A DNA stretch of 64,000 nucleotides from Lachnospiraceae bacterium (lineage in GTDB: Bacteria > Bacillota > Clostridia > Lachnospirales > Lachnospiraceae): positions 1 through 64,000 of the forward strand of contig JAFUYB010000066.1 in assembly GCA_017470735.1 (NCBI GenBank), in the 5' to 3' direction. The translations under genes were made by a program, and so were the position numbers. Within the stretch, counting starts at the first letter, position 1. Every line of letters starts with the position of its first letter. This document shows, piece by piece, positions 4,403-31,219 of this stretch. The notes under the pieces are model-generated. The model searched no databases, was not told the DNA's origin, and saw only the letters and a list, made by a program, of their open reading frames with translations.

Positions 4403-4834
4403 TTACTGTATTGTTTTCGGAACCTTGATTTCATCCAGGGCATTCCTGTGAAGGCGGAACACATTGTCGATACCGTATCCAAGCTCAATGGCGATCTCTT
4501 CCCATCTCATGTAGGACAGATACCTAAGCTCCAATACCGTCTGAAGCTCTGTACTCTCCACAGCTTTTATCCTGCGGATGATATCCTTCTTCAGTTCAAC
4601 CAGCTCCACCATATCCTTATTGATCTCGGTTTCAAGTTCGATGATCTTTATCACCGCATCCTCCAAACGGGAATGTCCCTTGTTCGGATTTCTCGGCATA
4701 TCCGAATATGTCACGGTCGCTTTGGTTGCCAGATCATGAAGTTCCTCGATCTGACCCAGTTTGCTCTCGATACGCTGATTCAGTCCAAAGGCCTGCGACA
4801 AATATTTCTTTGCTGCTATCTGATGCTTGTTCAT
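4403..4834 (-). CDS. DUF1492/ArpU-like phage transcriptional regulator
   Basis: This 143-residue protein is largely alpha-helical. Its N-terminal part has a coiled-coil character (residues about 10-90, rich in Glu, Lys and Ile). The C-terminal part, ELRYLSYMRWEEIAIELGYG followed by a second helix at VFRLHRNALDEI, resembles sigma-70 region 4, a DNA-binding helix-turn-helix. Proteins of this DUF1492/ArpU-like build sit before the packaging genes in Firmicutes phages and are thought to control late transcription. The terminator just downstream at 4304-4339 fits an early/late boundary here. No binding site was identified. Confidence 0.7.
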   Translation of the reverse strand: MNKHQIAAKKYLSQAFGLNQRIESKLGQIEELHDLATKATVTYSDMPRNPNKGHSRLEDAVIKIIELETEINKDMVELVELKKDIIRRIKAVESTELQTVLELRYLSYMRWEEIAIELGYGIDNVFRLHRNALDEIKVPKTIQ

Positions 4835-6485: not shown

Positions 6486-6747
6486 CCAGTATTCCTCCAA
6501 TCTGCTCCGGATCATCCAGCACATAGACCCGGAAGCCTAATTTCATCAAAAGCCGGTGCCGCGATGCCTGCAGCGGTCTCGGTCGTTCTCCGGGACGCTT
6601 AACTTCAACCATCCCGAAGTGCCTACCCGGCAGTAAGACAATCCGGTCGGGCATCCCATCAAATCCGGGTGACACCCATTTCGGACATATCCCGCCACGG
6701 CGTTTAACCTCGGAGACCAGCTTCTGCTCTATTACTTTTTCACGCAT
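6466..6747 (-). CDS. VRR-NUC domain nuclease
   Basis: This 93-residue protein is essentially a single VRR-NUC module of the PD-(D/E)XK superfamily. It has KWVSPGFDGMPDRIVLLPG with the catalytic Asp, then MVEVKRPGE with the E-x-K pair, and a C-terminal GFRVYVLDDPEQI. Eukaryotic FAN1 uses the same fold; the stand-alone phage versions are thought to act on branched DNA in replication or recombination. It is coupled by a 20-bp overlap to the SNF2 helicase, a common pairing in these phages, so the two may work together. Confidence 0.9.
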   Translation of the reverse strand: MREKVIEQKLVSEVKRRGGICPKWVSPGFDGMPDRIVLLPGRHFGMVEVKRPGERPRPLQASRHRLLMKLGFRVYVLDDPEQIGGILDEIQST

Positions 6748-6770: not shown

Positions 6771-6945
6771 GGTGACGGTCGGTGATGGTCTACCCAAAAA
6801 CTCCCTTTAGGACAGTTTTGAAAAACACACTATAAGGACTTTTCTGGTATGAGTGTCACCGACTGTCACCACGGCTTAAAACAAGGCTTTCTGAAAAACA
6901 GCAAATCTGAAACAGTTTACTGTCAGACTGTCATCGACCGTCACT
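6771..6945. repeat. three copies of a GTGAC-type repeat flanking the primase 3' end
   Basis: Three related elements of about 20 bp occur here: 6771-6790 on the plus strand (GGTGACGGTCGGTGATGGTC), 6851-6870 on the minus strand (GGTGACAGTCGGTGACACTC) and about 6926-6945 on the minus strand (AGTGACGGTCGATGACAGTC). Consensus RGTGACRGTCGRTGAYRSTC. The third touches the primase stop codon. They sit in the only sizeable noncoding gap of the replication operon, so they may be initiator sites of an origin or operators. Confidence 0.6.
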
Positions 6946-9229
6946 CTAGAAAATCCTGCCCTTCCTTTAACTTCAGACCGTATACAAACGATCCTATTTT
7001 GACCTTCTTTTTAGGGAAGCCCGCTTTTTCGATTGAACTGTAAAAATCTGTCGTGCTTCTGGTAAACTCACCATTCTGCAAACAGTACGCCCTGTATGCC
7101 TGATAAAGTTCCCCGGATTTCTCCGATGCAGCCTTATCGATGTCACAGCAGTCAGCCAGGAAATGTCCCAGCCAATCGTTATCCTCGCGGTATGCCTCAA
7201 TCGCATCTTCCACGATCTTCGGCAACGGCACCTTAAAATCCATGTCATAAGCCTTCTTTGCACCTTCGATGATCCAGCTCATGATGAAGGAACCGGCGTG
7301 ATCATAGAGATAATCTGCATAATTCTTAATATCACTGTCGCCAGTGATCTTTGCATTGAAGGGAATCACGATCAGTCTTCTCCAGATGCCGTCATCATTC
7401 GCGCCGACCTTCGGCAAATGGTTCGTGTATAACACCAGCGTATGCGAAGGGACAAAATGAAACGGAGCTTTGTACTTCTTCTCAGCTTGGATCTCATCCG
7501 TAGAGCAAAGCTGCTTCACAGTCGCAGTATTCAAGCGCATTCCCTCTTCCATTTCAGATGAGATAATGAGCCTGCGGCCTTTAAGTTCCGCCATCTCCGG
7601 TTTGATGTTCCTCTTGCAGTTCATGGTCAGTGCTTCTGCAGACAGCTTCCCTGCATAATCACCCAGGACCCGGAAGATCGTGTTCCAGAAAGTTGATTTA
7701 CCGTTTGCACCACCGCCGTAAGCAATGATCATATGCTCCTGATAGACCTTACCGATTGCTGCCAGTCCAACCACCAGCTGCACGTACTCGATCAGTTCCT
7801 TGTCACCACAGAAGAAAAGTTCCAAAGCATCAAGCCACAGCTTCCCTTCATCAGAACCCGGAGCGCAGGTCGTCATTTTCGTGATCAGGTCTCTCGGATC
7901 ATGCGGCTGCTCTCCGGAAAGTCCCTGTCTCAGGTCGTATGTCGCATACGGCGTATTGATGAGAAACTCGTTCTTATCCAGGTCATTTACATCAATACCG
8001 ATCATCGGCTTTGAAGCATTCCCCGTGGAAATGATGTACTTGTAATCCCTGCGTTTCAGCACGAACTTCAGATAGGTCTCCGCAGATATAAGCGCATACA
8101 ATAGCGGCATCTGATCATCCGATATTTCCTTCGCCACAGCCTTGGATCCACCCTTAACAACCGGTTCCGGTATCCCCGCATCGATCAACGCCTTCTCGGC
8201 AACTTCCTTATCCTGCTGGGCATCCACCAGCTGCAGATCAAGGAACTCTTCTATCGCGCCAATGGCAAGCTGCACATCCTCCACCCAGCGGTCGCCGTCA
8301 TATCGGAGATAATCCGTCGCTGCAGAGAACCTCAGCTCACTTCCGTACTCCTGCACTAGCACTTTCGCTTCACCAATATCCGAATAGTCCTCAGGCTTTA
8401 AGGAAGCATCACTAAAGTCTGAATTGTACTGATCCGGCGGCACATACCCGTCTGATGAAGAGATCTTCTTTTCAAAAAACTTCACCGCACTGTTCCAGAT
8501 TGTATTCAGTTCCGAATCCGGAAGCGGCGGATCACATTTCTGAGCATGCTCCATAAAAGCCACATGAGCTTTCTCCGTGTTGCCGTATCTCTTCAAGATC
8601 CTCGATGCAAAACGACTCATGGTGTTATTGCGGCTCCCCTGCAGGATCGGACCCGAACCGGAACTGGTCTGCCCATCTGAAGCATCCGAATCTTCATCTG
8701 AATAATCCGGGCTGATTTCTTCGTCAATCGTCATCCAGCCTTCATGCCAGATCACTTCACCACTATCCGAACCATATAAGAACCTGGCAGCATCCAGCGC
8801 ATTCCCGTCAAAGAACGGATACTTCTTATAAAGCGCTCTCTTCAGTCCCGCATAGACCTTAGCATCCGTGACTTCACCGATCTGGAAGTAGACGTGATAT
8901 TTCGGTCTGGCCGTCTTTCCGTCCTTTTCCTTCATATGATTGCGGCTCGGTACCAGCGCATATGAGAAATCAGGAAACATTTCATCCAGCTTCTCCGGAG
9001 TAATCCAATCATCGGGATTCTCGGAGTGGTCATTATCGATATCCATCACGATCACATCTGACCTTATGAAGTTCCCGATGCTTCGATAATTGCCCTTGTA
9101 CTCAGCGCAAACATGATCAGACCTGGCTGCACTCTGCAGCTGCTCCGCCGTGGACACCGATGCCCGGTTTGGATAGCTGCAGTTACCGGCTTGTCCGACG
9201 CAATTTGCTGTAAACATGGTAATCTGCAT
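6941..9229 (-). CDS. phage primase/helicase (prim-pol plus D5/SF3 helicase)
   Basis: This 762-residue protein joins a primase and a helicase. The N-terminal part has VIVMDIDNDH (Asp63/Asp65/Asp67), an archaeo-eukaryotic primase-type metal site, and PKYHVYFQI. After a D5_N-type middle region the SF3 helicase core shows Walker A AYGGGANGKSTFWNT, Walker B region GRRLIISSEMEEG, and sensor segment HTLVLYTNHLPKV. P4/D5-like proteins unwind DNA and prime synthesis at phage origins. A good ribosome site (AGAGG) precedes ATG 9229. It heads the minus-strand operon, starting next to the symmetric control region at 9276-9443. Confidence 0.92.
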   Translation of the reverse strand: MQITMFTANCVGQAGNCSYPNRASVSTAEQLQSAARSDHVCAEYKGNYRSIGNFIRSDVIVMDIDNDHSENPDDWITPEKLDEMFPDFSYALVPSRNHMKEKDGKTARPKYHVYFQIGEVTDAKVYAGLKRALYKKYPFFDGNALDAARFLYGSDSGEVIWHEGWMTIDEEISPDYSDEDSDASDGQTSSGSGPILQGSRNNTMSRFASRILKRYGNTEKAHVAFMEHAQKCDPPLPDSELNTIWNSAVKFFEKKISSSDGYVPPDQYNSDFSDASLKPEDYSDIGEAKVLVQEYGSELRFSAATDYLRYDGDRWVEDVQLAIGAIEEFLDLQLVDAQQDKEVAEKALIDAGIPEPVVKGGSKAVAKEISDDQMPLLYALISAETYLKFVLKRRDYKYIISTGNASKPMIGIDVNDLDKNEFLINTPYATYDLRQGLSGEQPHDPRDLITKMTTCAPGSDEGKLWLDALELFFCGDKELIEYVQLVVGLAAIGKVYQEHMIIAYGGGANGKSTFWNTIFRVLGDYAGKLSAEALTMNCKRNIKPEMAELKGRRLIISSEMEEGMRLNTATVKQLCSTDEIQAEKKYKAPFHFVPSHTLVLYTNHLPKVGANDDGIWRRLIVIPFNAKITGDSDIKNYADYLYDHAGSFIMSWIIEGAKKAYDMDFKVPLPKIVEDAIEAYREDNDWLGHFLADCCDIDKAASEKSGELYQAYRAYCLQNGEFTRSTTDFYSSIEKAGFPKKKVKIGSFVYGLKLKEGQDFLE

Positions 9230-9275
9230 AGCTTTAACCTCTTTTCTTAAAAAGTAAGGAACAATTTCCTCCTAA

Positions 9276-9443
9276 CTTCCTAAGCGGGTTTCACCGAACT
9301 TTTTCCGGTCAGCCATCAAATTTCTCACACAAAAATAAAGCCGATCTGAATCGCTTCCTTTTATAAGCGAAATCGTAACCGGCACTTTTTTCAAAAATAT
9401 TTCCCTGCGACCGGAAAAATCATTTCCAAACCCGCTTAGGAAG
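9276..9443. repeat. symmetric inverted-repeat control region between divergent phage operons
   Basis: Outer arms at 9276-9291 and 9428-9443 are perfect 16-bp inverted copies of CTTCCTAAGCGGGTTT. Inner arms at 9300-9310 and 9409-9419 are perfect 11-bp inverted copies of TTTTTCCGGTC. Both pairs share the same centre (9359.5) with 8-bp gaps on each side. A weaker hairpin (TCGCTT/AAGCGA) lies one base off that centre. Each divergent operon therefore starts behind the same AAACCCGCTTAGGAAG element. It could be a duplicated promoter/operator read both ways or an invertible switch. Confidence 0.85.
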
Positions 9444-9485
9444 ATAGAAAGGCTACAAAGCCATTCGGAAAGGAAGGTGCTGCAG

Positions 9486-9647
9486 ATGCAGAAAGAATCC
9501 ACTGATAACAGCCAGCAGGATACCGCAATCGACGAAGAGCTTATCGATACTCTCATCGCCATAAGCGTTGTAGCCAAGAGACTGGCAGCCAACCTGAGAA
9601 AACAGAATACAGAAAACGGAGGTAAAGACAATGAGCAAAATGAGTGA
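9486..9647 (+). CDS. small phage protein, first gene of plus-strand operon
   Basis: A 53-residue frame starts at ATG 9486 behind GGAAGG and ends at TGA 9645-9647, overlapping the next gene by 17 bases. The peptide is acidic at the N-terminus (MQKESTDNSQQDTAIDEELI) and then helical (IAISVVAKRLAANLRK). Nothing identifies its role. Position, ribosome site and coupling overlap support translation; it is the first gene after the divergent control region, a usual place for an early regulator or accessory replication factor. Confidence 0.65.
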   Translation: MQKESTDNSQQDTAIDEELIDTLIAISVVAKRLAANLRKQNTENGGKDNEQNE

Positions 9648-9996
9648 ACTCTCTGCCATGATCGACAACCTGATCAGTTGCGGAGAAACATTGGCAGAGA
9701 CCGGCAGAGCTCTGAAGGAATTCTATTCCGGAACCGAAGAAGCAGCCCCGGCAAAGCCTGAGAAGAAGACAAAGAAACAGGATGCCGCTCCTGCGGAAGC
9801 ACCTGCCGAAAAGCAGTATTCCAAGGAAGAAGTCAGAGGCATCCTGGCAAAGAAGGCCAACGAAGCAGACGGCAGATTCAAAGCTGATGTCAAAGCAATC
9901 GTTCAGAAGTACGGCAACGGAGGCAGCCTTACTGATGTGGATGCAAAAGACTATGCCGCTCTTGTAGCAGAGGTGGAAGGTCTGACAGATGCCTAA
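9631..9996 (+). CDS. Ala/Lys-rich phage protein of the DUF2800 module
   Basis: This 121-residue protein has a short N-terminal helix (MSELSAMIDNLISCGETLAE), a low-complexity Ala/Pro/Lys linker (residues about 35-70) and a C-terminal helical domain with YSKEEVRGILAKKANEADG and VKAIVQKYGNGGSL. The C-terminal part resembles a small domain often found just ahead of DUF2800 genes in Clostridia phages, sometimes annotated as an rRNA-biogenesis-like protein without functional proof. It overlaps DUF2800 by 8 bases. It may be an accessory to the nuclease and ssDNA-binding protein encoded next. Confidence 0.75.
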   Translation: MSKMSELSAMIDNLISCGETLAETGRALKEFYSGTEEAAPAKPEKKTKKQDAAPAEAPAEKQYSKEEVRGILAKKANEADGRFKADVKAIVQKYGNGGSLTDVDAKDYAALVAEVEGLTDA

Positions 9997-11110
9997 GCAC
10001 GCATACCTCTCCGCCTCCGCAAGCCACAGATGGCTCGCCTGCCCACCCAGCGCAAAATTATGTGCCGGTATCAATGACAGCGGCAGTCCATACGCCCAGC
10101 AGGGAACCGATGCACATGCCCTCTGTGAATACAAGGTCGAGAAGCTGCTTGGTAGGGATCCCAACGATCCTACAGAGAACCTGACCTATTTTGATACGGA
10201 AATGGCTGACTGCACCGATGAATATGCTTCCTATGTTATGGAACAAGTAAACGACGCAAAGCAGCATTGCTCCGATCCGCTGATCCTCATAGAGGAAAAG
10301 CTGGACTTCTCAAAATGGGTACCGGAAGGCTTCGGAACCGGCGACTGCGTGATCGTGGCAGATGATGTACTTCATATCATCGATTTCAAATACGGTCTCG
10401 GTGTCCTGGTGGGTGCCACAGAGAACCCCCAGATGATGTGCTACGCCTTGGGAGCATTGGATACCTTTGACGGAATCTACGACATACAGACCATCCGTCT
10501 TACGATCTTCCAGCCCCGCAGAGACAGCATCAGTACCTACGAGATCAGCAAGACTGACCTTATGAAATGGGCAGAAGAAATCCTGAAGCCTACCGCAGAG
10601 CTCGCTTACAACGGCGAAGGCGAATACAACGCCGGTGACCACTGCCAGTTCTGCAAAGCAAAAGCAACCTGCCGCAAACGTGCCGAACATAATCTGGAAC
10701 TCGCACAGTATGACTTTGATATGCCACCCAACTTGGATGATGCAGAAATAGCTGCCATCCTCCCCCGGATCGATGATCTGGTGGCCTGGGCGAATGACAT
10801 TAAGGAATACGCACTCCAGCAGGCACTCAGCGGTACAGAATACCCCGGCTTCAAAGTCGTGGAAGGCAAATCGAACCGCAAATTCACAGATGAGGATGCA
10901 GTTGCAGCCGTCGTGACTGAAGCAGGCTTCGATCCCTACGAAAAGAAGCTTCTGGGAATCACGGCAATGACTTCTCTTCTCGGTAAGAAGAAGTTCAACG
11001 AACTCCTGACCGGCTATATCACAAAGCCGCAGGGCAAACCAGCACTTGTGCCGGAGTCAGATAAACGACCGGCAATGAACACAGCCAAAGATGATTTTAG
11101 TGAAGAATAA
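9989..11110 (+). CDS. DUF2800 RecB-like nuclease
   Basis: The 373-residue protein shows a PD-(D/E)XK nuclease core of the Cas4/RecB type. It has an N-terminal SASASHRWLACPPSAKLC with a first Cys, a DAHALCE helix, VLHIIDFKYGLG carrying the D-x-K catalytic strand, and a C-terminal CQFCKAKATCRKRAEHN giving the other three cysteines for an Fe-S cluster. Such enzymes process DNA ends, and the DUF2800-DUF2815-PolA order suggests a phage recombination/replication unit. All expected catalytic features are visible. It starts inside the previous gene. Confidence 0.9.
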   Translation: MPKHAYLSASASHRWLACPPSAKLCAGINDSGSPYAQQGTDAHALCEYKVEKLLGRDPNDPTENLTYFDTEMADCTDEYASYVMEQVNDAKQHCSDPLILIEEKLDFSKWVPEGFGTGDCVIVADDVLHIIDFKYGLGVLVGATENPQMMCYALGALDTFDGIYDIQTIRLTIFQPRRDSISTYEISKTDLMKWAEEILKPTAELAYNGEGEYNAGDHCQFCKAKATCRKRAEHNLELAQYDFDMPPNLDDAEIAAILPRIDDLVAWANDIKEYALQQALSGTEYPGFKVVEGKSNRKFTDEDAVAAVVTEAGFDPYEKKLLGITAMTSLLGKKKFNELLTGYITKPQGKPALVPESDKRPAMNTAKDDFSEE

Positions 11111-11123
11111 GGAGGAAAAAATC

Positions 11124-11693
11124 ATGGCAAACAAAGTAACAATTCCGACAAAGGTAATCACAGGCGTAAACACCAGATGGTCCTACGCAAACGTATGGGA
11201 TCCCAAGTCAATCAACGGTGGAGCACCGAAGTACAGCGTCTCCCTCATTATCCCGAAGTCCGATACTGCTACAGTCGCCAAGATCAAGGCAGCAATCCAG
11301 GCAGCCTATGAGGAAGGCCAGAGCAAGCTGAAGGGCAACGGCAAGTCCGTTCCTGCCCTCTCCGCTATCAAGACACCGCTCCGTGACGGTGATCTGGAGA
11401 GACCCGACGATGAGGCTTACAAGAACGCCTACTTCATCAACGCCAACAGCGCAACAGCTCCTGGCATCGTGGATGCAGACAGACAGCCGATCATGGAACG
11501 TTCTGAAGTCTACTCCGGTGTGTACGGCAGAGCCAGCATCAACCTGTACGCCTTCAACAGCAACGGCAATAAGGGTATCGCCTGCGGTCTGAATAACCTT
11601 CAGAAAATCCGCGATGGTGAACCTCTCGGAGGCAAGTCCAGAGCTGAGGACGACTTCGCAACGGCAGACGATGAGGATGATTTCCTCGACTAA
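11124..11693 (+). CDS. DUF2815 ssDNA-binding-like protein
   Basis: The ATG at 11124 follows AAGGAGG; an in-frame start at 11091 lies inside the previous gene and is less likely. The 189-residue protein has beta-rich segments (RWSYANVWDP, PKYSVSLIIPKSD, YSGVYGRASINLYAFN) and ends in a strongly acidic tail DDEDDFLD. Acidic tails of this kind recruit partners in single-stranded DNA-binding proteins such as SSB and T7 gp2.5. The family is DUF2815, generally read as an OB-fold ssDNA-binding protein of phage replication. Its place between a RecB-like nuclease and a DNA polymerase agrees. Confidence 0.88.
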   Translation: MANKVTIPTKVITGVNTRWSYANVWDPKSINGGAPKYSVSLIIPKSDTATVAKIKAAIQAAYEEGQSKLKGNGKSVPALSAIKTPLRDGDLERPDDEAYKNAYFINANSATAPGIVDADRQPIMERSEVYSGVYGRASINLYAFNSNGNKGIACGLNNLQKIRDGEPLGGKSRAEDDFATADDEDDFLD

Positions 11694-11993: not shown

Positions 11994-12014
11994 GCGGCAG
12001 GCATGTTCTGCCGC
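11994..12014 (+). other. hairpin upstream of phage DNA polymerase
   Basis: GCGGCAG and CTGCCGC form a perfect 7-bp stem around GCATGTT, followed by TTCTCGTTTC. It ends 27 bases before the polymerase ATG at 12042, leaving the ribosome site AAAGGA free. A weak terminator or mRNA-processing structure is possible. Confidence 0.45.
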
Positions 12015-12041
12015 TTCTCGTTTCATAGAAAGGACAATGAG

Positions 12042-14024
12042 ATGAAAGAAATGTCAATCGATTTAGAGACTTACAGCGACGTAAACATCACCAAATGCGG
12101 TGCATACAAGTACACAGAGTCTGATGAATTCGAGATACTGCTCTTCGGCGTCTCAGTGGATGGCGGACCCGTCGTGGTGTATGACCTTGCCTGCGGCGAC
12201 TCCATTCCCGATGAGATCCTTGAAGCACTATCTGATGAGAATGTAACCAAGTGGGCTTTCAACGCTTCCTTTGAACGCGTCTGTTTCTCCAACTGGCTGA
12301 AAAAGCATCGCCCGGAATACTTCACCGGTTACAGCATCCCGGAGGATCCAGCCGGTCAGTATCTCGATCCTGCTTCATGGAAATGTTCAATGATCTGGTC
12401 AGCGTATATGGGACTACCGCTCTCTTTGGAAGGTGTCGGAGCAGTATTAAAACTTCAGGATCAGAAGCTGAAAGAGGGCAAAGATCTGATCCGCTACTTC
12501 TGTACTCCCTGTAAACCCACCAAAGCAAACGGCGGTCGCACCCGGAACCTTCCGGAGCATGATTCTGAGAAATGGGAACTCTTTAAGAAATATAATCAGC
12601 GTGATGTGGAAGTCGAGATGGCGATACAGAAACGTCTGTCAAAATATCCTGTTCCGGAATTTATCTGGGATGAATATCATCTCGATCAGGAGATTAACGA
12701 CAGAGGTATCGCCCTGGATATGGATGTAGTGGAGAACGCCATCAATTTTGATGAACGTTCCAAAGCTGCCCTCTCCGAAACCATGCAGGATATCACCGGC
12801 GTAGAGAATCCGAACAGTGTGATGCAGATGAAGGCATGGCTCTCCGAGAACGGCGTAGAGGCAGAATCCCTCGGAAAGAAGGATGTGGCAAAGCTGATCG
12901 ACGATACCGCCGGTCAAGTGGAAGAAGCACTTCGGCTCCGCCTTCAGCTGGCAAAATCATCCGTGAAGAAATACCAGGCCATGCAGAATGCTGTCTGCAA
13001 GGACGGCAGAGCTCACGGCATGTTCCAGTTCTACGGAGCCAACCGCTCCGGCAGATGGGCAGGCAGACTGATCCAGTTGCAGAACCTTCCGCAAAACCAC
13101 ATGCCGGATCTCGCAGAGGCAAGAACCATTGTGAAAGCTGGCGATTATGATACCCTGCAGCTGCTCTATGATGATATCCCGGATACACTTTCACAGTTGA
13201 TTCGGACAGCCTTCGTGCCCCGTCCCGGATACAAGTTCATTGTCAGCGACTTCTCCGCTATCGAAGCCAGAGTGCTGGCCTTCCTTGCCGGTGAGACTTG
13301 GCGTTCCAAAGTATTTGCGGAAGGCAAAGATATCTACTGTGCCTCTGCCAGCCAGATGTTCGGCGTGCCGGTCGAAAAGCACGGGATCAACGGTCACCTG
13401 AGACAGAAGGGAAAAATCGCAGAATTGGCTCTCGGCTATGGCGGCAGCGTTGGTGCCCTGAAATCGATGGGTGCTCTTGAAATGGGATTATCCGAAGAAG
13501 AACTGCAGCCGCTGGTCAGCTCCTGGCGGAGCTCCAATCCGATGATTACCGCCTTCTGGTTGGACATCGACCGTGCCGTCAAGACTACCATCACACAACG
13601 GATCCAGACAGAGGTTCGCGGCATCAAGTTTTTTTACAAGAGCGGAATGCTCTTCATCAAGCTTCCCTCAGGTCGCCTTCTCTCCTACGTGAAGCCGCGT
13701 ATCGGTGAGAATCAATTCGGCGGTGAATCCGTCACCTACGAAGGTGTTGGATCCACAAAGAAATGGGAACGCATCGAATCCTACGGTCCGAAGTTCGTGG
13801 AGAACATCGTGCAGGCCGTAAGCAGAGACATCCTCTGCTATGCCATAAAAACTCTCCGTCACTGCTTCATCGTCGGTCACGTTCATGATGAGCTGATCAT
13901 CGAATGCAGCCCTAATGTTGACCTGAATGTAATCTGCAAGCAGATGGGCAGATCTCCAGACTGGATGCCGGACATCCTGCTTCGCGCCGACGGATATGAA
14001 ACCATGTTTTACAAGAAAGACTAA
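12042..14024 (+). CDS. phage family A DNA polymerase
   Basis: This 660-residue protein is a PolA-type polymerase with proofreading. The 3'-5' exonuclease motifs are SIDLETYSD (Exo I, D-x-E), NASFERVCF (Exo II) and YNQRDVEVE (Exo III). Polymerase motifs are FIVSDFSAIEARVLAFLAGE (A), RQKGKIAELALGYGG (B) and VGHVHDELIIE (C), so all catalytic acids are present. No 5'-nuclease domain is fused. The start at 12042 (AAAGGA, 7-base spacing) is preferred over the frame opening at 12003. It is the last plus-strand phage gene, ending 5 bp before the stop of the convergent Na/Pi cotransporter. Confidence 0.95.
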   Translation: MKEMSIDLETYSDVNITKCGAYKYTESDEFEILLFGVSVDGGPVVVYDLACGDSIPDEILEALSDENVTKWAFNASFERVCFSNWLKKHRPEYFTGYSIPEDPAGQYLDPASWKCSMIWSAYMGLPLSLEGVGAVLKLQDQKLKEGKDLIRYFCTPCKPTKANGGRTRNLPEHDSEKWELFKKYNQRDVEVEMAIQKRLSKYPVPEFIWDEYHLDQEINDRGIALDMDVVENAINFDERSKAALSETMQDITGVENPNSVMQMKAWLSENGVEAESLGKKDVAKLIDDTAGQVEEALRLRLQLAKSSVKKYQAMQNAVCKDGRAHGMFQFYGANRSGRWAGRLIQLQNLPQNHMPDLAEARTIVKAGDYDTLQLLYDDIPDTLSQLIRTAFVPRPGYKFIVSDFSAIEARVLAFLAGETWRSKVFAEGKDIYCASASQMFGVPVEKHGINGHLRQKGKIAELALGYGGSVGALKSMGALEMGLSEEELQPLVSSWRSSNPMITAFWLDIDRAVKTTITQRIQTEVRGIKFFYKSGMLFIKLPSGRLLSYVKPRIGENQFGGESVTYEGVGSTKKWERIESYGPKFVENIVQAVSRDILCYAIKTLRHCFIVGHVHDELIIECSPNVDLNVICKQMGRSPDWMPDILLRADGYETMFYKKD

Positions 14025-14029
14025 GGCTT

Positions 14030-15772
14030 CTATATCTTGTATTTTACCCTTAACTCTTGTAGTTCCTGACCAAAATCTTCTCCGCTATTACGGAGCAATC
14101 TCTGATTTTGATGAATATTCATGGTGTGGCCGGCTGTATCGAGTACACATCCGGAAATATTGGAACAATGATCGGCAACCCGCTCCAGGTTAGTCAGCAA
14201 ATCAGACCATACAAACCCGGCATCTACTGAGCATTCTCCTTTTTGCAGACGCAGTATGTGCCGGGTGCGTAACGTCTCTTTCAGCTCATCAACAATCTGC
14301 TCTAAAGGCTCCGTTTTACGCGCCGCTTTAAGATCCGTATCCTTAAATGCTGTATGTGACAGATCCAATATATCCTCAACCGCATCCGATATCAGATTGT
14401 ATTCTTTTTGCGCCTGATCTGAAAACACAATTCCTTTTTGTACCAATTCCTCTGCGGACTCCAGAATATTTACTGCATGATCTGCAATTCTTTCATAGTC
14501 ACCGATCACCTTCATATATTCCGTCGCTTTTGCACTTTCGTTTTCTCCAAGCTGTGTAGAAGTCAGCTTTACCAAATAAGTCCCCAGGATATCTTCCAGA
14601 TGATCTGTTTTCTCTTCAGCTTCCCTGATCCGTAATGCAATCTCTTCATCATATCTGGTGATCGAACCAATACTATCCTTCAAAGCAGCCACAGCTATTC
14701 CTGCCATTGAATCAAGAACCTGACCGCATCTTTCAAGTGCAAGAGAAGGGCTTCCCAGCAGACGAGAATCCAATTCCTCTGTCTGTTCAATTACTTCATT
14801 ATCAGGGATCATCTTTTTTACCATTTTTTCAAGCATACCTGCAAGCGGAAGCATCAACAGTGTGCACAGAATATTAAAAGCCGAATGACATACAGCTATG
14901 CCCATCAAACTTGCTGATTCTCCAAGAATAGCCGGAACTGCCACAGCCTTCACTATGCAGAATATCGACAACCAGACAACTGTTCCTATCACATTGAAAC
15001 TCAGATGTACCAATGCTGCACGCTTTGCATTTTTGTTGGCTCCTACAGCAGAAATGATGGCGGTTATGCAGGTTCCTATATTCTGTCCCATGATAATCGG
15101 AATTGCTGCGCCATATGTCACTGCTCCGGTTGATGCCAGTGCCTGTAGTATGCCGACAGAAGCAGAGCTGGACTGAATAATTGCTGTCAGAATCGCTCCT
15201 GCCAATACTCCAAGCACGGGATTTGTAAACGCAACAAACATATTCTGGAACGCCGGAAGATCACGCAGTCCTGATACGGCTCCTGACATGGCTTCCATTC
15301 CAAACATCAATGTGGCAAAGCCCAAGAGAATCATTCCCGTATCCCTCTTCTTAGACTCTTTTGTAAACATATACAGAATGATTCCAATCAGAGCAAGGAT
15401 CGGGGTAAAAGACGAAGGCTTCAAAAGCTTTACAAAAACGTTATCGCTACTTATTCCTGAAAGGCTCAGGATCCAGGCAGTTACCGTGGTTCCGACATTA
15501 GCCCCCATAATAACATTGATAGCCTGGCGCAATGTCATAAGTCCGGAATTGACAAAACCAACGACCATGACTGTGGTTGCTGATGAACTCTGTATCACAG
15601 CAGTAACACCAAGTCCCGTCGTAAGTCCTGTGATCCTGTTCGTCGTCAATTTTCCCAGCAATACCTTCAGCCTATTTCCGGCTCGCCGTTCCAGCGCCTG
15701 TCCCATCAGTGACATTCCAAACAGGAACAGGCTTAAACCTCCTATCAGATTGAGGATACTAAAAATGTCCAT
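14030..15772 (-). CDS. Na+/phosphate cotransporter with PhoU-like C-terminal domain
   Basis: The 580-residue protein has an N-terminal membrane part (about residues 1-330, eight or more helices). It contains the two duplicated QSSSA signatures of the NptA/PNaS family, AVIQSSSATTVMVVGF and AIIQSSSASVGILQAL. The C-terminal 230 residues are cytosolic and helical, resembling PhoU repeats (KVIGDYERIADHAVNILESA and VWSDLLTNLERVADHCSNIS). Family members import inorganic phosphate with sodium and may be controlled through the PhoU-like tail. A Pho-box-like repeat lies about 75 bp upstream, so PhoB control at low phosphate is likely. It has no terminator of its own before the convergent phage gene. 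Confidence 0.92.
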   Translation of the reverse strand: MDIFSILNLIGGLSLFLFGMSLMGQALERRAGNRLKVLLGKLTTNRITGLTTGLGVTAVIQSSSATTVMVVGFVNSGLMTLRQAINVIMGANVGTTVTAWILSLSGISSDNVFVKLLKPSSFTPILALIGIILYMFTKESKKRDTGMILLGFATLMFGMEAMSGAVSGLRDLPAFQNMFVAFTNPVLGVLAGAILTAIIQSSSASVGILQALASTGAVTYGAAIPIIMGQNIGTCITAIISAVGANKNAKRAALVHLSFNVIGTVVWLSIFCIVKAVAVPAILGESASLMGIAVCHSAFNILCTLLMLPLAGMLEKMVKKMIPDNEVIEQTEELDSRLLGSPSLALERCGQVLDSMAGIAVAALKDSIGSITRYDEEIALRIREAEEKTDHLEDILGTYLVKLTSTQLGENESAKATEYMKVIGDYERIADHAVNILESAEELVQKGIVFSDQAQKEYNLISDAVEDILDLSHTAFKDTDLKAARKTEPLEQIVDELKETLRTRHILRLQKGECSVDAGFVWSDLLTNLERVADHCSNISGCVLDTAGHTMNIHQNQRLLRNSGEDFGQELQELRVKYKI

Positions 15773-15846
15773 ACATACTCTCCATTCTTCTGTTTTTTAT
15801 CGTTCAAAAGAATGGTAGCAATTGAACATCAAATCCATTATCGATC

Positions 15847-15865
15847 TCTTGTAAAATTCATGTAA
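15847..15865 (-). promoter_or_regulatory. Pho-box-like direct repeat upstream of the Na/Pi cotransporter
   Basis: On the minus strand TTACATGAATTTTACAAGA holds two TTACA hexamer-like units spaced 11 bp apart, the geometry of PhoP/PhoB sites in Firmicutes. The copy before phoB (TTACGTAGAATTTACAAGA) matches at 15 of 19 positions. Confidence 0.65.
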
Positions 15866-15876
15866 TGTCCGCAACG

Positions 15877-15901
15877 AAAAAGCAGGAGCCGCAGCCCCTG
15901 C
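15877..15901 (-). terminator. terminator of the phoB-phoR-HD operon
   Basis: On the minus strand GCAGGGGC and GCTCCTGC pair (one G-U) around TGCG and are followed by TTTTTCG. It lies 12 bp beyond the HD gene stop codon and upstream of the Pho box of the next gene. Confidence 0.8.
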
Positions 15902-15913
15902 GAAGAAAATATA

Positions 15914-16570
15914 TCAGATCAATTGCTGTTCGTTTATCATCAGTTTAAACTGCAGACCAAGTTTTTCCGCTGCTTTTCGACATAAAACCATTCGTTTAAG
16001 GAATATTTCAAAGTAATCCATAACTGAACTGTAATGCGTATCAACGGAAAGCTTCAGTTTGATAAGCGTATGTGCTTCGTTGATCTTCAATTCAGATTTT
16101 GTCACAGAATAGTTCACTCTGTCATGTATATCAAATGCGGATACATCCTGGTTTCTTACCCGGTTGCGTCGTACATCACTCTTATCAGCCAGAATCAGCG
16201 CAGCAGCCAGTTCACTGACCGGTATTCCTGTCCCTTCGTCATGATTACCGATTGCTGTAATAATTTGTCCTATTTCGTCCGGTGGAAACCCTAAATGATC
16301 CAAAATACGAAAAGCTATAATTGCACCGGATTGGCTGTGTTCAACACGATTAACAATATTGCCGATATCATGGAGGTATCCGGCAATCTTCACAAGTTCT
16401 ACAGTCCGGTCCGGATACCCCAGCGTTGACAGAATATATCCTGCTTTCTCTGCCACAAGCGTAACATGGGCAAAACTATGCTCAGTATATCCAAGTGCTG
16501 AAAGAGACTGGTCTGCCTGGCGAATATAGGTATTTATTTCATCATTGTTCTTTATGTCTTGATAGGTCAT
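15914..16570 (-). CDS. HD-domain phosphohydrolase in the pho operon
   Basis: The 218-residue protein has the order expected of an HD metal-dependent phosphohydrolase: HSFAHVTLVAEKAG (first His), AGYLHDIGN (the HD pair), IGNHDEGTG, and ADKSDVRRNRV (distal Asp). Its ATG overlaps the PhoR stop by the ATGA arrangement, so it is translated with the kinase. HD proteins hydrolyse nucleotides or cyclic dinucleotides; the substrate cannot be told from sequence. The coupling to PhoR suggests a phosphate-starvation role, for example nucleotide salvage or signalling. The C-terminal third has no recognised domain. Confidence 0.8.
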   Translation of the reverse strand: MTYQDIKNNDEINTYIRQADQSLSALGYTEHSFAHVTLVAEKAGYILSTLGYPDRTVELVKIAGYLHDIGNIVNRVEHSQSGAIIAFRILDHLGFPPDEIGQIITAIGNHDEGTGIPVSELAAALILADKSDVRRNRVRNQDVSAFDIHDRVNYSVTKSELKINEAHTLIKLKLSVDTHYSSVMDYFEIFLKRMVLCRKAAEKLGLQFKLMINEQQLI

Positions 16571-17925
16571 AAGTTAATATCCTGTTTATTGGGTATGGTA
16601 ACAATCATTTCTGTCCCCTCTCCCAGTTCACTCTTTACCTCAATTTTCCCGTTGTGGATCATAACTGCATGTTTAACAATAGAGAGTCCCAGACCGGTAC
16701 CTCCCACTTCCTTACTCCGACTTTTATCAACACGGTAAAAACGTTCAAATATCCGCTCACTGCTTTCCTCCGAGATTCCTATTCCTGTATCTTTGACCCT
16801 GAGTACTGTATTAAATAACGTTTGATGGACATGGATATTAACACTTCCTCCACAGTGGTTATACTTAATAGCATTATCACAAAGGTTATATACGATACTG
16901 TAAATCAGTTGCGGAATCGCCCTGATAGGAGCATCCGTTCCATCCACTGTAACTTCCACACCCAGAGCGGTAGCTGCAACTTCTAGGCTATCCACCGCAT
17001 TTTCAGCTATACGATACAGGTCACAATCCTCCCATTTCATCTCCTCACCGCCATTATCAAGTCTGGTAAGATCAATGATATCCTCAACAAGTTTTGTCAT
17101 TCTGGTGGACTCTTCCCGTATTTTACCTGCAAACGGTTTAATATCCTCCTCTTTCACCATTTCGTTTTCAAGCAACTCAGCATAACCTGAAATCACATGA
17201 AGCGGCGTTTTTAATTCATGTGATACATTAGCCGTAAATTCCTGTCTGATCAATGCAGCCTTCTCTATTTCCTTCTGATCTCGTTTAAGTTGTTCGTTTT
17301 GAGACTGAATACGCCTGAGCAGAGGCGCAATTTCCTTATATTCTTCTTCATCGATATGCTGAAGCGGATCATCCGGATCAATACCGTTGATTGGTGTCAG
17401 TATTCGCTTTGTAAGCCTTGATGCAAGCACAAAGGACAAAACAAATGCAATCAGGATCACAAGGCAGATCGGCTGTGCAAATCCCAAAAGCAGTGCCCAG
17501 ACTGCCATTTGAACACTCGAAAGCCTAAGTACAGACCCATCTGACAGCCTGATGGCCGAATACAACTGCTTGTCGGATAATGTGTTTGAATATCTCACAC
17601 TCTCACCATATCCATCAGCAAGGGCTTCTATTATTTCTTCACGTTCCAGATGATTTTCCATCTCATTTGCATTTACTGCGTTGTCAAATAAAACCGTCCC
17701 ATCTGCATCGATCCATGTAATGCGGTAATCCTTAGCTTCCAGACCGTTAAGGTAATCCAGTCCGGACATGGAGACACCCTGTGATGCCAGCTCGGCTTCA
17801 GTCCTTAACTGCTTTAGCTGGACCCCGGAAAAGTAGTTATAGGAAACACCCATAATAAATGTAAGCGATGCCAGAAAAACGACTATGGCGACGATCCATA
17901 TGGCATTAAATATTTTTTTATTCAT
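16567..17925 (-). CDS. phoR: phosphate sensor histidine kinase PhoR
   Basis: The 452-residue kinase starts at ATG 17925, inside the end of phoB. It has a transmembrane helix at about residues 7-27, an extracytoplasmic domain up to about 140, a second helix at about 148-170, then a HAMP/linker region. The catalytic core has the H-box FTANVSHELKTPLHVISGY with phospho-acceptor His236, N-box YNLCDNAIKYN, G1 VKDTGIGIS and G2 GGTGLGLSIVKH. The build is that of PhoR, which phosphorylates PhoB in low phosphate. The gene order phoB-phoR and nearby phosphate transporter support the name. Confidence 0.88.
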   Translation of the reverse strand: MNKKIFNAIWIVAIVVFLASLTFIMGVSYNYFSGVQLKQLRTEAELASQGVSMSGLDYLNGLEAKDYRITWIDADGTVLFDNAVNANEMENHLEREEIIEALADGYGESVRYSNTLSDKQLYSAIRLSDGSVLRLSSVQMAVWALLLGFAQPICLVILIAFVLSFVLASRLTKRILTPINGIDPDDPLQHIDEEEYKEIAPLLRRIQSQNEQLKRDQKEIEKAALIRQEFTANVSHELKTPLHVISGYAELLENEMVKEEDIKPFAGKIREESTRMTKLVEDIIDLTRLDNGGEEMKWEDCDLYRIAENAVDSLEVAATALGVEVTVDGTDAPIRAIPQLIYSIVYNLCDNAIKYNHCGGSVNIHVHQTLFNTVLRVKDTGIGISEESSERIFERFYRVDKSRSKEVGGTGLGLSIVKHAVMIHNGKIEVKSELGEGTEMIVTIPNKQDINL

Positions 17926-18598
17926 TTTCCTGCCCTTCCATCTTATAGCCAACCCCGCGTACAGTCTTTATCATGTCTCCGCACTCATCGAGCTTTGTCC
18001 GCAGCGTTCCAATATGAACATCTACCGTCCTGGTCTCCCCAACGAAGTCAGCCCCCCAAACAGACGCCAGAAGAATATCCCGTGTAAAAACCTGTCCGGT
18101 ATTCTCAGCCAGAAGCTTCAGTAATTCGTATTCTTTCAGAGTGAGCGAAATAAGCCTGTCATTAACTGTGACCGTATGTTTCCCTTCATCAATTACAATA
18201 CTTCCACACTGTATCTGTTTCTGCTTTTTCTTTGGTATGCTGCGTCTTAACACCGCTTTTATTCGGGATACCATCTCCATCATCCCAAAAGGCTTTGACA
18301 GATAGTCATCGGCTCCACTGTCCAGTCCAATTACTGTGTCATACTCACTATCCTTTGCAGTTGCCATGATAACCGGTATTTCTTCCGTAACCGGAGAGCT
18401 CCTCAGCTTCTTTAAGATGCTAATACCGTCTTCTCCCGGCAGCATGATATCAAGAATCACCAGCTCAGGTTTCTTTTCCTTCATCATATCCCAAAAGGCA
18501 GCCGCATCCTGAAAGCCGCAAGCTTCAAACCCGGAAGCCTGAAGTGTATAAACCATAAGCTCCCTGATACTGCTGTCGTCCTCCACACAATAAATCAT
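17918..18598 (-). CDS. phoB: phosphate response regulator PhoB/PhoP
   Basis: The ATG at 18598 has GGAGG six bases upstream and gives 226 residues of an OmpR/PhoB-family regulator. The receiver domain shows acidic residues CVEDDSS, phospho-acceptor LVILDIMLPGEDG (Asp50), and YLSKPFG with the conserved Lys. The C-terminal winged helix has LTLKEYELLKLLAEN and TVDVHIGTLRTKLDE. When phosphorylated by PhoR it should bind Pho boxes such as those at 18665-18683 (its own promoter) and 15847-15865. The overlap with phoR indicates a single operon phoB-phoR-HD. Confidence 0.9.
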   Translation of the reverse strand: MIYCVEDDSSIRELMVYTLQASGFEACGFQDAAAFWDMMKEKKPELVILDIMLPGEDGISILKKLRSSPVTEEIPVIMATAKDSEYDTVIGLDSGADDYLSKPFGMMEMVSRIKAVLRRSIPKKKQKQIQCGSIVIDEGKHTVTVNDRLISLTLKEYELLKLLAENTGQVFTRDILLASVWGADFVGETRTVDVHIGTLRTKLDECGDMIKTVRGVGYKMEGQENE

Positions 18599-18642
18599 AT
18601 GAAGCCTCCTTCCGCACCTTTGTACAAACATACTATCGCTTG

Positions 18643-22399: not shown

Positions 22400-25300
22400 T
22401 TACGCCGCCTGCTTATAGTGCGTATAAATATGTTCGTATATAGCCTTCCGGTATGCTTCCAGCCGATCAAACATGCTATCCGGAATCTCTTCATAAAGCA
22501 CATTTCTGATCAGAACGTCAACTGCTGCCCTGGTCTCCTGCTTATCTGTCCAGTGATCCATACCGGCGATTCTTTCCTTTATTTTCTGAAGCAGGTCTTT
22601 GGACATCTTCTTGATCTTATCTATATCGCTCTTCGACAGATTCTCAGAGAAAAGCAGATCATAAATCGACAGCTCTTCATCACTGGAGAATCCTTCACGG
22701 GCATATCGCTGTTCTTCCTCTGACATACTCTTTGCCAGATCCATGAGCTCCATAAAGGTCTTCTCTATGGTCGTCCGATCCTGCTCCGCGTTATAGGTCT
22801 CGATGATCCCCATATAGCGGACATAATAATCAACGCGTGAAGGATTCACCGCCATCATCTTTGATAAGCGCTCCTGTACCAAATCATTCAAGTCTTTGAT
22901 CATCAGGTTCTTTCTCTTTACCTTTGAGAACTCTGCAGCCAGCAAATCAAAGTCAATCTGACTGATATCAAAGCGCCGGGACTCCACCAGACCTTCGCCT
23001 TCCTGATGCTCAATCTCCACATTTTCATTGATGATGTGGTTGATCTCCACCATCAGATCCGTCGTATCAATATGCTTGCGCTTTTTCTGCATCTCCCGGA
23101 AGATAGCGCAGATAGCATCCATCTGATCACGGACATCCTGCGTAACATCATTACGATCAAGATACTTAACAAGTCTGCTGATCTCATTCGCGTATGTATC
23201 AAAAGATTTCTTAGTCTCCGGATCAGAGCACATTGCTTCCGCTCCGTCCTTAAGCAGAGCCATCTTCTTAAAATTCTCAGCCTTGATCAGTGCATCCAAG
23301 TCAAAATCATGCTCTGCCAACAGCTGTTTTGCATCTGAGGCAGCTCTTATAATCTGCCCAATCAGTTCCTCTTTATTAACGGTCGGATCGATTGCATTCC
23401 GTCCGTTTTTATTTGCTGTATAATCATTCAGCGCCTTCTTCAAGGCTCCAACAATACCTATATAATCGATGATGAGACCGTTGCTCTTGCCGGCAGCAAC
23501 ACGGTTTGCCCTGGCAATTGTCTGCATCAACGTATGCGCCTTCAGCGGCTTATCCAAATACAGGCAAGACAGCGACTTAACATCGAAACCGGTCAGCCAC
23601 ATCGCACAGACGAACACAACACGGAAATTGCTGTCGGAATCCTTGAATTCCTTATCCAGTTCCCGCTTCTCCATCTTTGTCCTGTGCGGCAGAATATCCA
23701 AATTCCACTTCTTAAAGGTCTGGATCTCATTCTGTTCCTGGCTTATGACCACGCACATCTCGGTGTCCTTCATCCATTTCAGCTTCCTGGACAGCTCCAT
23801 TTGCTCCTGATCAGAAACGGTACTTGCTATCTTCTGTTCAAGTGCTTTGATTTCCTCCTGCCAGTATTCCTGTACGAAGTTATACATACGGACACAAGTG
23901 ACCTTATTCAGGCAGACGAACATGGCCTTGCCTGTAGTCCATAGATCACTGTAATGCCCGACAAAGTCTTTTGCGATAGCACGCAGACGTGGCTCCGATG
24001 TCAGAAGGTGTACTTCCTTCTCAAACTCATGCATCACCTTCTCAGCCTGATCCGGATTCAGATCGGCTTCTTCAATGGCATCCAGAATCTTATCAGTGAT
24101 ATCCGGATTCTTGATTTCTTTTATCTTATCGCCACGGTTTTCATAGTAAAGCGGAACCGTAGCCTTATCTTCTACAGCACGCTTGAAATCATATACGGAG
24201 ATATATCCACCAAATGTTCTTGCTGTGATCTCATTGGAGGACAGCAGCGGCGTTCCTGTAAATCCGATACGAGATGCTGTAGGAAGCAGCTTTTCAATGT
24301 TATCTGCGAACACTCCGTACTGGCTCCGATGGGCTTCGTCCGAGATGATCAGAATATCGTGATCCGGATAAATCGGAGGTTCATCCGGCTTATTAAACTT
24401 CTGTATCAGCGTGAAGATAAAGCTCGGATTACCCTTCAACTTGTTGATCAGGTCTGTACCGCTGGTAGCCATGAACTTCTTTCCTTCTGTTTTGCCCAGC
24501 AAACCACAGGCTTCAAAAGTACCGCATATCTGCTTATTCAATTCGTCACGATCTGTCAGCACAACGATAGTCGGAGATCCCGGAAACTTCCTGCGGATCT
24601 TCTGTGACAGGAACAGCATCGAATAACTCTTACCAGATCCCTGGGTATGCCAGAAAACACCAAGCTTTCCTTCGCGGAGCTGACGTTCTCCATACGCCTT
24701 CACTGCTTCATTTACACCAAGGTACTGATGGTTCCTTGCCAGAATCTTTACAGTCTTTCCATCGGAATGATCATAAAGGATAAAATTCTCATATAGGTCA
24801 AGAAAGTTCTCTTTCTTGCAGATACCACGCAGCATGGTTTCCAAGGCAACACTTCCCGCATCATCCTCAGACAATCTCTTCCACTCATGGAAAAATTCAT
24901 ACTTGCTGCCAAGCGTTCCAACCTTTGCTTCCATACCATTTGAAAGCATCAGGAATGCGTTGTAATAGAATAGGAACGGTATAGTGTCCTGATAATCGGT
25001 GTAGTTATCCGTATAGGCATTCTCCACATCCACATCGTTACGCTTAAGTTCAATGAATAACAGCGGAAGACCATTTACAAAGCCCACTATATCCGTGCGC
25101 CTGCGATACAGATCTCCGTGGATCTTTAATTCCTTCACGGCAAGGAAATGATTATTATCAGGATCATTAAAATCAATTACAACAGCCTTCTTCTCTTCAG
25201 TCTTTCCGTTCGGTTTCTTAACCGTCACCGGAATGCCGTCACGGATCATAAAATACTTTTCCTCATTGATCTGAAGCAATGACGCTGAAGACAGGTATGA

Positions 25301-25540
25301 TGAAAGTGTCTGGTGAGCCTCGCTGATCTGAGTATCCGTGATCCACGGATTCAGTTTTTTCAAAGCCTGGTTGAAATATCTCCAGAGAACTATTTCGTGA
25401 TAATCCTTCCTTCCTAAAGTACCATTTTCCCCCAGCACTTCCTGATTATAGGCAAAGACGACATCCCACCCCAGCTCATCATGCATAAGAGCAGCCGCGC
25501 TGTCCTGAACTAAAACATTTTCAGAGTATTCATATTTCAT
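22400..25540 (-). CDS. hsdR: type I restriction endonuclease subunit R
   Basis: The 1046-residue protein has the HsdR layout. The N-terminal PD-(D/E)XK nuclease includes RRTDIVGFVNGLPLLFIELK with catalytic D and E-x-K. The SF2 translocase has Walker A HTQGSGKSYSML, motif II ISDEAHRSQYG, motif III GFTGTPLL, and motif VI TIARANRV. The helical C-terminal quarter binds the methylase core. HsdR translocates DNA and cuts non-methylated DNA at random distance. GGAGGG lies before ATG 25540. No disruption is visible. Confidence 0.95.
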   Translation of the reverse strand: MKYEYSENVLVQDSAAALMHDELGWDVVFAYNQEVLGENGTLGRKDYHEIVLWRYFNQALKKLNPWITDTQISEAHQTLSSYLSSASLLQINEEKYFMIRDGIPVTVKKPNGKTEEKKAVVIDFNDPDNNHFLAVKELKIHGDLYRRRTDIVGFVNGLPLLFIELKRNDVDVENAYTDNYTDYQDTIPFLFYYNAFLMLSNGMEAKVGTLGSKYEFFHEWKRLSEDDAGSVALETMLRGICKKENFLDLYENFILYDHSDGKTVKILARNHQYLGVNEAVKAYGERQLREGKLGVFWHTQGSGKSYSMLFLSQKIRRKFPGSPTIVVLTDRDELNKQICGTFEACGLLGKTEGKKFMATSGTDLINKLKGNPSFIFTLIQKFNKPDEPPIYPDHDILIISDEAHRSQYGVFADNIEKLLPTASRIGFTGTPLLSSNEITARTFGGYISVYDFKRAVEDKATVPLYYENRGDKIKEIKNPDITDKILDAIEEADLNPDQAEKVMHEFEKEVHLLTSEPRLRAIAKDFVGHYSDLWTTGKAMFVCLNKVTCVRMYNFVQEYWQEEIKALEQKIASTVSDQEQMELSRKLKWMKDTEMCVVISQEQNEIQTFKKWNLDILPHRTKMEKRELDKEFKDSDSNFRVVFVCAMWLTGFDVKSLSCLYLDKPLKAHTLMQTIARANRVAAGKSNGLIIDYIGIVGALKKALNDYTANKNGRNAIDPTVNKEELIGQIIRAASDAKQLLAEHDFDLDALIKAENFKKMALLKDGAEAMCSDPETKKSFDTYANEISRLVKYLDRNDVTQDVRDQMDAICAIFREMQKKRKHIDTTDLMVEINHIINENVEIEHQEGEGLVESRRFDISQIDFDLLAAEFSKVKRKNLMIKDLNDLVQERLSKMMAVNPSRVDYYVRYMGIIETYNAEQDRTTIEKTFMELMDLAKSMSEEEQRYAREGFSSDEELSIYDLLFSENLSKSDIDKIKKMSKDLLQKIKERIAGMDHWTDKQETRAAVDVLIRNVLYEEIPDSMFDRLEAYRKAIYEHIYTHYKQAA

Positions 25541-25583
25541 AAAGGATGCCCTCCTTGTAATCGTTCTAAGGTTTATACTGACC

Positions 25584-28564: not shown

Positions 28565-28651
28565 AACGATTTCCTCCACGATTAATATGCCGGCCAGGTA
28601 CACTCCGACATCATAATTTTATCTAATATGCTGTCCCAAAAAATGGACTCA

Positions 28652-30767: not shown

Positions 30768-31219
30768 TCTACTACCTCCTCACGGAATGATTGTTCTGAC
30801 ATTTTATAAATCGTCGCAATCAATGACCGTTCAGACTTGCCAGCTACTGCTGACACAACATTACGTGCATATGCCCGATACTCACGTGCATAATCACTAT
30901 CCAAGGATTTACAATAGTCTTCTCCCTCGGTGCTGATGACATAAGACAAGCCGTTCTTATAGCTTACTGCCTCCGCTGTACCGTTCAATACAAGTTCTCT
31001 AAGTGCCTCCTTTACCAGCTCGCGTTGAGAGGCGAACTCACTAAATTTGTATTCGTTATCGCCATTAAGATTCTGATCTGCCAAACCAAATGCTTTACTG
31101 TATAATGCCATAAAATCCACAGCATACAACATGTCCAATGTTTGCGGCATATCAAACTCATCCAGAAGAATGAGCAATCGAAGCGAATTTTCAAACGTAG
31201 AATTAAATATCCTGTCCAT
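30764..31219 (-). CDS. ABC-3C-type middle component
   Basis: The 151-residue protein starts at ATG 31219 behind GAGGGATG, inside the end of the preceding gene. It is helical with a winged-helix feel: NSLRLLILLDEF, MLYAVDFMALYS, a central LVKEALRELVLNGTAEAV, and YVISTEGEDYC. Size, order and sequence style match the middle component (type 2) of ABC-three-component systems, or LmuC of Lamassu, which bridges ATPase and effector. Direct overlap with both neighbours supports a three-subunit complex. Confidence 0.68.
   Translation of the reverse strand: MDRIFNSTFENSLRLLILLDEFDMPQTLDMLYAVDFMALYSKAFGLADQNLNGDNEYKFSEFASQRELVKEALRELVLNGTAEAVSYKNGLSYVISTEGEDYCKSLDSDYAREYRAYARNVVSAVAGKSERSLIATIYKMSEQSFREEVVE

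Follow-up and report, generated by a model that had tools for sequence, protein, structure and literature searches.

We found that the nested inverted repeats at positions 9230-9485 of the window (the whole stretch of DNA analysed, 64,000 nucleotides from a Lachnospiraceae bacterium) consist of a directional two-block unit placed once in each direction between two divergent phage operons. The two arms are very probably copies of one phage promoter/operator unit that answers to a common factor, and the overall explanation that fits best, which we regard as probable, is a regulon of bipartite units with the phrog_2513 protein (hereafter p200) as the candidate reader. Specifically, block A of the unit (GACCGGAAAAA) would act as a -35-like element and block B (CTTAGGAAG) as a -10-like or operator-like element. 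The left copy would drive the primase/helicase operon leftward and the right copy the operon for recombination and PolA in the opposite direction; the serine-recombinase (integrase) operon would be driven by a third copy, located where the prophage ends on its other side. All copies would be read by one phage-specific factor, so that replication, recombination, and integration/excision would switch jointly; this reader would be p200, for which a sigma-region-4 domain and a hairpin-locked translation start are predicted. The mirror symmetry would arise because the two operons start back to back. The units, their spacing and direction, the third copy, their match within a phage and diversity between phages, and the geometry can be read from the DNA sequence itself; we infer that the units are the promoters and that they would be activated rather than repressed.

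Two-block units between the divergent operons

The intergenic region and its flanking operons contain the following features, with the right operon running in the order 53-aa ORF, phrog_408, DUF2800, ssDNA-binding protein, and PolA:

6941-9229, minus strand: P4-family primase/helicase (D5_N, TIGR01613), gene 1 of the left operon
9266-9310, minus strand: left unit, toward the primase operon; block A (GACCGGAAAAA) at 9300-9310, block B (CTTAGGAAG) at 9276-9284, TTAGGAGG downstream; conserved in relatives
9340-9383, no strand: central imperfect hairpin, its CGCTTCCTTTTATA loop conserved, with T-rich sequence to either side; may serve as a bidirectional terminator or insulator
9409-9452, plus strand: right unit, toward the small ORF/DUF2800/SSB/PolA operon; block A (GACCGGAAAAA) at 9409-9419, block B (CTTAGGAAG) at 9435-9443, ATAGAAAGG downstream
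9486-9647, plus strand: 53-aa conserved small protein (phrog_3280), gene 1 of the right operon
9631-9996, plus strand: phrog_408 protein
9989-11110, plus strand: DUF2800 exonuclease-like protein
11091-11693, plus strand: Enc34-type ssDNA-binding protein
12003-14024, plus strand: phage DNA polymerase A (PolA)

The first-pass annotation had described two perfect inverted-repeat pairs on one exact centre within a 168-bp block, and the coordinates bear this out: the 16-bp arms (9276-9291 and 9428-9443) and the 11-bp arms (9300-9310 and 9409-9419) share the centre 9359.5, and the block spans 9276-9443. At 95%, the outer arms extend to 20 nt (9272-9291/9428-9447). When the 256-bp intergenic region was randomised 2000 times with a first-order Markov model, a perfect inverted repeat of at least 16 bp never appeared, and two arms of at least 8 bp with a common centre appeared in 4. 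Across the whole 3.04-Mb genome, the exact 16-mer occurs at two sites only, namely the two arms. Both inverted-repeat pairs belong to a single 35-nt unit, GACCGGAAAAA-N8-AAACCCGCTTAGGAAG, which occurs once in each direction; the first-pass annotation had overlooked this common unit, its third copy on another contig, and the conserved hairpin at the centre. Each arm is a directional two-block unit (GACCGGAAAAA, 15 nt, CTTAGGAAG-(A/T)TAG), which reads outward from either arm as GACCGGAAAAA-N8-AAACCCGCTTAGGAAG-(A/T)TAG.

The blocks are separated by the distance of a -35 and a -10 element. From CGGAAA to CTTAGG this is 23 nt, and both arms hold CGGAAA-N17-CTTAGG, that is, two hexamers with a spacer within the 16-18 bp of sigma-type bipartite promoters. 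Start-to-start spacing stays at 22-24 nt across unit types. A search of 9100-9700 for a sigma70 consensus promoter (TTGACA/TATAAT-like hexamers) returned no site, and no Rfam family matched in the window.

Unit types in related phages and a third copy at the integrase operon

The divergent order of the primase and DUF2800/PolA operons is kept in most related IMG/VR loci and in Javan49, phi1207.3, and PV036455 ('Ca. Heliusvirales'). Paired units lie between these operons in most of about 80 related phages from Lachnospiraceae and Streptococcus, including phi1207.3. Using a block-wise search (10 nt plus 18 nt at fixed spacing), we observed a matched outward pair in nearly every testable intergenic region, with 22-28 of 28 block positions matching; in the nine loci checked against shuffles, the pairs reached z-scores of 6.3-10.7. 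The first-pass annotation had called such an arrangement unusual for this phage type, which was mistaken, as matched units are the rule in this phage family. The units match within a phage and fall into at least 14 sequence types between phages, for example (block A/block B) CGGAAAA/ACTTAGTAAGG, ATCGGAAAA/ACCTAGACC, GACTAAA/CCCTAGTAGG, and TTCCGGTCA/CTTACATAGCTGG. Many phages carry two tandem units on the right side. Types are also swapped among close relatives: the primases of the window, L019, L023, and L025 are 77-84% alike and their units are different. In another relative (L031), a longer and strongly folding insert takes the place of the central hairpin, with both units intact.

The arms of relatives differ before a common GCTTAGGAAG, with AAACCC in one arm and CAGGGC or AGATGC in the other; because this stretch varies, conservation belongs to blocks A and B together and not to the 16-mer. 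The exact 16-mer was rejected as the conserved element: it gave 15 exact matches in IMG/VR, and each contig among those traced into relatives had a single exact copy, so that conservation does not extend to the inner AAACCC. Of the 16-bp element, whose conservation in related phages the first-pass annotation had made a point to check, GCTTAGGAAG is kept and AAACCC is not. A single copy elsewhere, which the same annotation had raised as something to look for in related prophages, was found: at a distance, before the recombinase operon, stands one more unit, of the type proper to that phage.

In the window's own genome, this third exact unit (CGGAAAAATCATCTCAAAAGGCGCTTAGGAAG) lies on contig C75 at 765-796, where an endolysin gene precedes it and a small ORF with two serine-recombinase genes directly follows. 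We scanned nine Streptococcus phage records (33-50 kb each) with a weight matrix built from 19 Streptococcus units. High-scoring units were confined to the divergent intergenic region and one site about 30 kb away, which fronts the serine-recombinase operon and is present in all seven records that extend that far. Pattern scans of Lachnospiraceae phages and of GACTAAA-type phages gave a similar distribution, each phage with its own unit type, and the extra unit precedes recombinase genes wherever its context was read (G100, G107, G108, and the window's own genome). Within one phage, the directional site thus precedes several operons and is confined to these positions, as in a regulon. Contig C75 also carries a RumA-like C-terminus, which reads as displaced, where the second recombinase ORF ends; in the window, a rumA/rlmD gene (34055-35740) adjoins p200. 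Since the 3' end of rum is the known attachment site of phi-m46.1 (PMC4288039), contigs C71 and C75 probably carry opposite ends of a single prophage, judging from gene content.

Candidate readers of the units

Four features bear on which protein reads the units:

4403-4834, minus strand: DUF1492/ArpU-like protein (phrog_36), encoded in the primase operon; rejected as unit specificity determinant
32572-32626, plus strand: predicted RNA hairpin that covers the p200 start codon and Shine-Dalgarno sequence (91-nt fold of -33.2 kcal/mol)
32624-33247, plus strand: p200, phrog_2513 protein of 207 aa, with a predicted sigma-region-4 fold at C-terminal residues 132-207; best candidate reader
34055-35740, minus strand: rumA/rlmD, with the attachment site for this side of the prophage probably at its 3' end

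In related phages p200 adjoins polA, and in the window it lies beyond 18 kb of cargo. This stretch includes genes for an Na/Pi symporter-like protein, an HD-domain-like protein, a sensor kinase, and a response regulator (14030-18631), within the presumed prophage span, which are either unusual cargo or a sign of a more complex prophage boundary. The cargo that separates polA from the end of the prophage also comprises type I restriction-modification genes (R, S, M; 22400-28603). Genes of the Lamassu defence type (LmuB 28923-30767, LmuC 30764-31225, and LmuA 31203-32240) directly adjoin p200, as do similar-looking neighbours in L296 and L297, and a SymE-like toxin gene (33606-33965) lies between p200 and rumA. 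The p200 gene was present in 27 of the 33 records checked, the absentees being five trimmed Javan records and G101.

When we compared Streptococcus phages of the GACTAAA/CCTAGTAGG type with those of the CGGAAAA type, core genes, including the integrases and primase, were mostly 83-98% identical, whereas p200, at 95-100% identity within the GACTAAA type, was only 32-33% identical to its CGGAAAA-type counterpart. Among 24 phages, unit similarity correlated with p200 similarity (r = 0.73), also when primase similarity was taken into account (partial Mantel 0.60, p = 0.0005). L019-L025, which have swapped units and are closest to the window, lay outside this comparison. With this partial correlation of 0.60 and the swap at 32-33% identity, site and candidate regulator covary, with the exception of one discordant phage (L077), which has units as in another group and a p200 of a different class. 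The predicted recognition helix follows the same lines: the motif KSQGYxDIKAAQ is common to the p200 of the window and that of the L026 phage, which have equal unit types, and the helix reads mostly K(S/T)(Q/A)(G/A/S)Y in CGGAA-type phages and RSTGF in GACTAAA phages. Because p200 does not separate the closely similar block B types CTTAGTAAG and CCTAATAAG, these comparisons point to block A as the part that p200 would read, with block B perhaps the target of a second factor. A helix-turn-helix-zinc family (phrog_2308-like) also differs between types (63-65% between types versus 78-96%), and six of the 19 phages compared lack it, among them the window's phage as far as it is sequenced.

As a blind test, we searched bacterial genomes for close homologues of p200 and obtained eight genomes. 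Window-type units were carried by all four of those with a phage primase and by none of the four without one. Three of these primases are 70-72% identical to that of the window, like the L026 clade with this unit type, so that only G131 (61%) is a clearly independent test; in G136, p200 and the phage lie on separate contigs. In the four genomes without the phage, the p200 homologues lie beside rumA-like or Par genes. Despite its correlation with unit type, p200 is thus also found without a phage, and several elements may share it as an attachment-site gene. That p200 is a mere mobile-element neighbour, as its ParB-like surroundings in G098 and G105 might indicate, was dropped given its adjacency to polA elsewhere and its correlation with type. 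In the G105 locus (L258), a unit of its own type lies upstream of p200 at about 6517-6547 (record 26417-26447), beside the ParB-like genes.

The AlphaFold2 model of p200 (mean pLDDT 71) combines an alpha/beta N-terminal domain of low-to-medium confidence with a confident four-helix C-terminus. When residues 132-207 were aligned structurally with VIA-align, sigma factors (region 4) dominated the 50 matches listed, the best with Z 9.3 and an rmsd of 2.0 over 72 residues, and the ECF factor SigL with Z 8.8. For a helical domain this small, a Z of 8-9 supports a sigma-region-4 fold but does not prove it. A weak FliA/WhiG profile match was obtained for L215, and a PDB sequence search with p200 returned nothing significant. 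RNA folding would also control p200 translation. Among the p200 leaders analysed, the Shine-Dalgarno sequence, and often the start codon too, falls inside a predicted hairpin that would lock initiation; that of the window has a z-score of -4.2, with none of 200 shuffles as stable, and the leaders of homologues, different in sequence, score from -2.5 to -5.6, with phi1207.3 weak at -1.1. On these comparisons, we place p200 as the reader of the units slightly above an even chance.

The DUF1492/ArpU-like protein has family and position in its favour as a reader, as it belongs to a transcription-regulator family and adjoins the helicase gene in 90 of 91 loci examined, but natural swaps in two clades contradict it as the specificity determinant: it is 96-97% identical, with an identical helix-turn-helix, in L019 and L024 despite their different units, and just 34% identical in L026, whose units equal those of the window. 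Among the 24 phages, its similarity did not significantly follow that of the units given the primase (partial r = 0.08, p = 0.16), and we consider this reading highly improbable.

Rival readings, known systems, and significance

The units could instead be operators of a dimeric prophage repressor that binds block B and silences the three operons, type swaps then being swaps of immunity group. Block B is palindromic in several phages (CCTTACTtAGTAAGG, ACCTATATAGGT) and covers the -10 position, the regulon comprises early lytic and integrase operons, and the swaps between close relatives resemble those of lambdoid immunity. However, the palindrome of the window is imperfect, and block A varies with type as well as block B. 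A non-systematic look at helix-turn-helix genes identified no CI-like gene as a family core gene, and the gene that best follows the types has a predicted sigma-region-4 fold, which is usual in activators and sigma factors. We therefore hold this reading to be unlikely.

A further possibility is that the units and hairpin are the iterons and the strand-opening or priming site of a replication origin for the P4-family primase/helicase. The site adjoins the primase/helicase gene, has AT-rich flanks and a conserved central hairpin with a type-independent loop, and the P4 alpha protein is an origin-repeat binder. The units themselves are directional, stand immediately before ribosome-binding sites, and recur ahead of the integrase operon, and the primase varies little between types except in its first 40-80 residues, which makes this origin improbable. 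The central hairpin itself could be an origin. Its CGCTTCCTTTTATA loop is conserved and its stem varies among phages while staying largely complementary; the loop CTTCCTTTTATA (9340-9383 and relatives) is conserved across unit types. In the window's group, stem mismatches on the plus strand are more often A-C than G-T, so leftward RNA would pair better, in sequences that are related to each other. The hairpin may be a terminator, an RNA element, or an origin.

Equally improbable is that the blocks are transcribed leader elements, for antitermination or translational control, with promoters nearer the centre. Small hairpins follow block B in some leaders (for example, GGCTACAAAGCC), and in Streptococcus phages the ribosome-binding site coincides in part with block B. 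Yet no conserved sigma70-type -10 element lies upstream of the units, the palindromic part (for example, ACCTATATAGGT) has no loop for an RNA hairpin, and the blocks hold a promoter-like spacing.

The first-pass annotation had offered either one regulator acting on the same element in both directions or an invertible promoter. The former is supported by the matched units in most relatives and the matched copy before the integrase operon. The latter, a 168-bp block flipping between its 16-bp arms by site-specific recombination, has perfect arms and serine recombinases at the other end of the prophage to recommend it, but we reject it as extremely unlikely, given that the central loop keeps one orientation (22 of 22 loci with a strict motif, 56 versus 1 with a loose one), that the arms are not kept identical in relatives, which share only block A and GCTTAGGAAG, that a unit in both directions means that a flip would switch nothing on or off, and that the unit is also present singly, far away, before the integrase operon. 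No recombinase is encoded among the ORFs adjoining the site, the serine recombinases being on contig C75 at the integrase end.

The regulon of bipartite units resembles several known systems. As with the operators of lambda, 434, and P22, divergent operons lie behind matched sites, and site specificity swaps between close relatives along with a cognate regulator, here a candidate; in contrast to lambdoid phages, the candidate regulator is a predicted sigma-region-4 protein instead of CI/Cro, its gene is far from the sites, and the sites are long, bipartite, and promoter-like, with a third one that would control the integrase operon. As with phage sigma factors and appropriators (SPO1 gp28, T4 MotA/AsiA) and ECF sigma factors, the promoters would lack the host -10 consensus, with a -35-like GGAA element 17 bp from a -10-like element and a regulator of sigma-4 fold. 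Unlike these factors, p200 appears to have a separate alpha/beta N-terminal domain in place of a recognisable sigma region 2, and it belongs to temperate phages in which specificity types are swapped. The late-gene regulators of the ArpU/DUF1492 family have a counterpart here beside the helicase gene, which does not determine unit specificity. Invertons and phase-variable promoters share the inverted repeats around a promoter region, whereas here we observe a single orientation, non-identical arms, promoter-like units both ways, and a singleton copy elsewhere. The phages phi1207.3, phi-m46.1, phi-SsUD.1, Javan-type prophages, and PV036455 have the same gene order around the intergenic region, and phi1207.3, phi-SsUD.1, the Javan phages, and PV036455, all of which were scanned, also have the same unit architecture; the unit sequence types differ from those of the Streptococcus and 'Ca. 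Heliusvirales' phages.

The literature that we searched on these phages contained no report of the units or of a regulator, and no description of lysogeny control in this family. We tentatively propose, at somewhat less than even odds, that phrog_2513 is a master switch that reads a type-specific -35-like element in the promoters for replication, recombination, and integrase, with its specificity swapped like an immunity type and its own synthesis held off by the start-codon hairpin. If true, this would be a form of lysis-lysogeny control without a CI-type repressor, in a widespread family of temperate phages from Lachnospiraceae and Streptococcus that includes the macrolide-resistance phage phi1207.3 and relatives of phi-m46.1. 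The units offer a testable regulon with at least 14 specificity groups, for which one candidate regulator is indicated.
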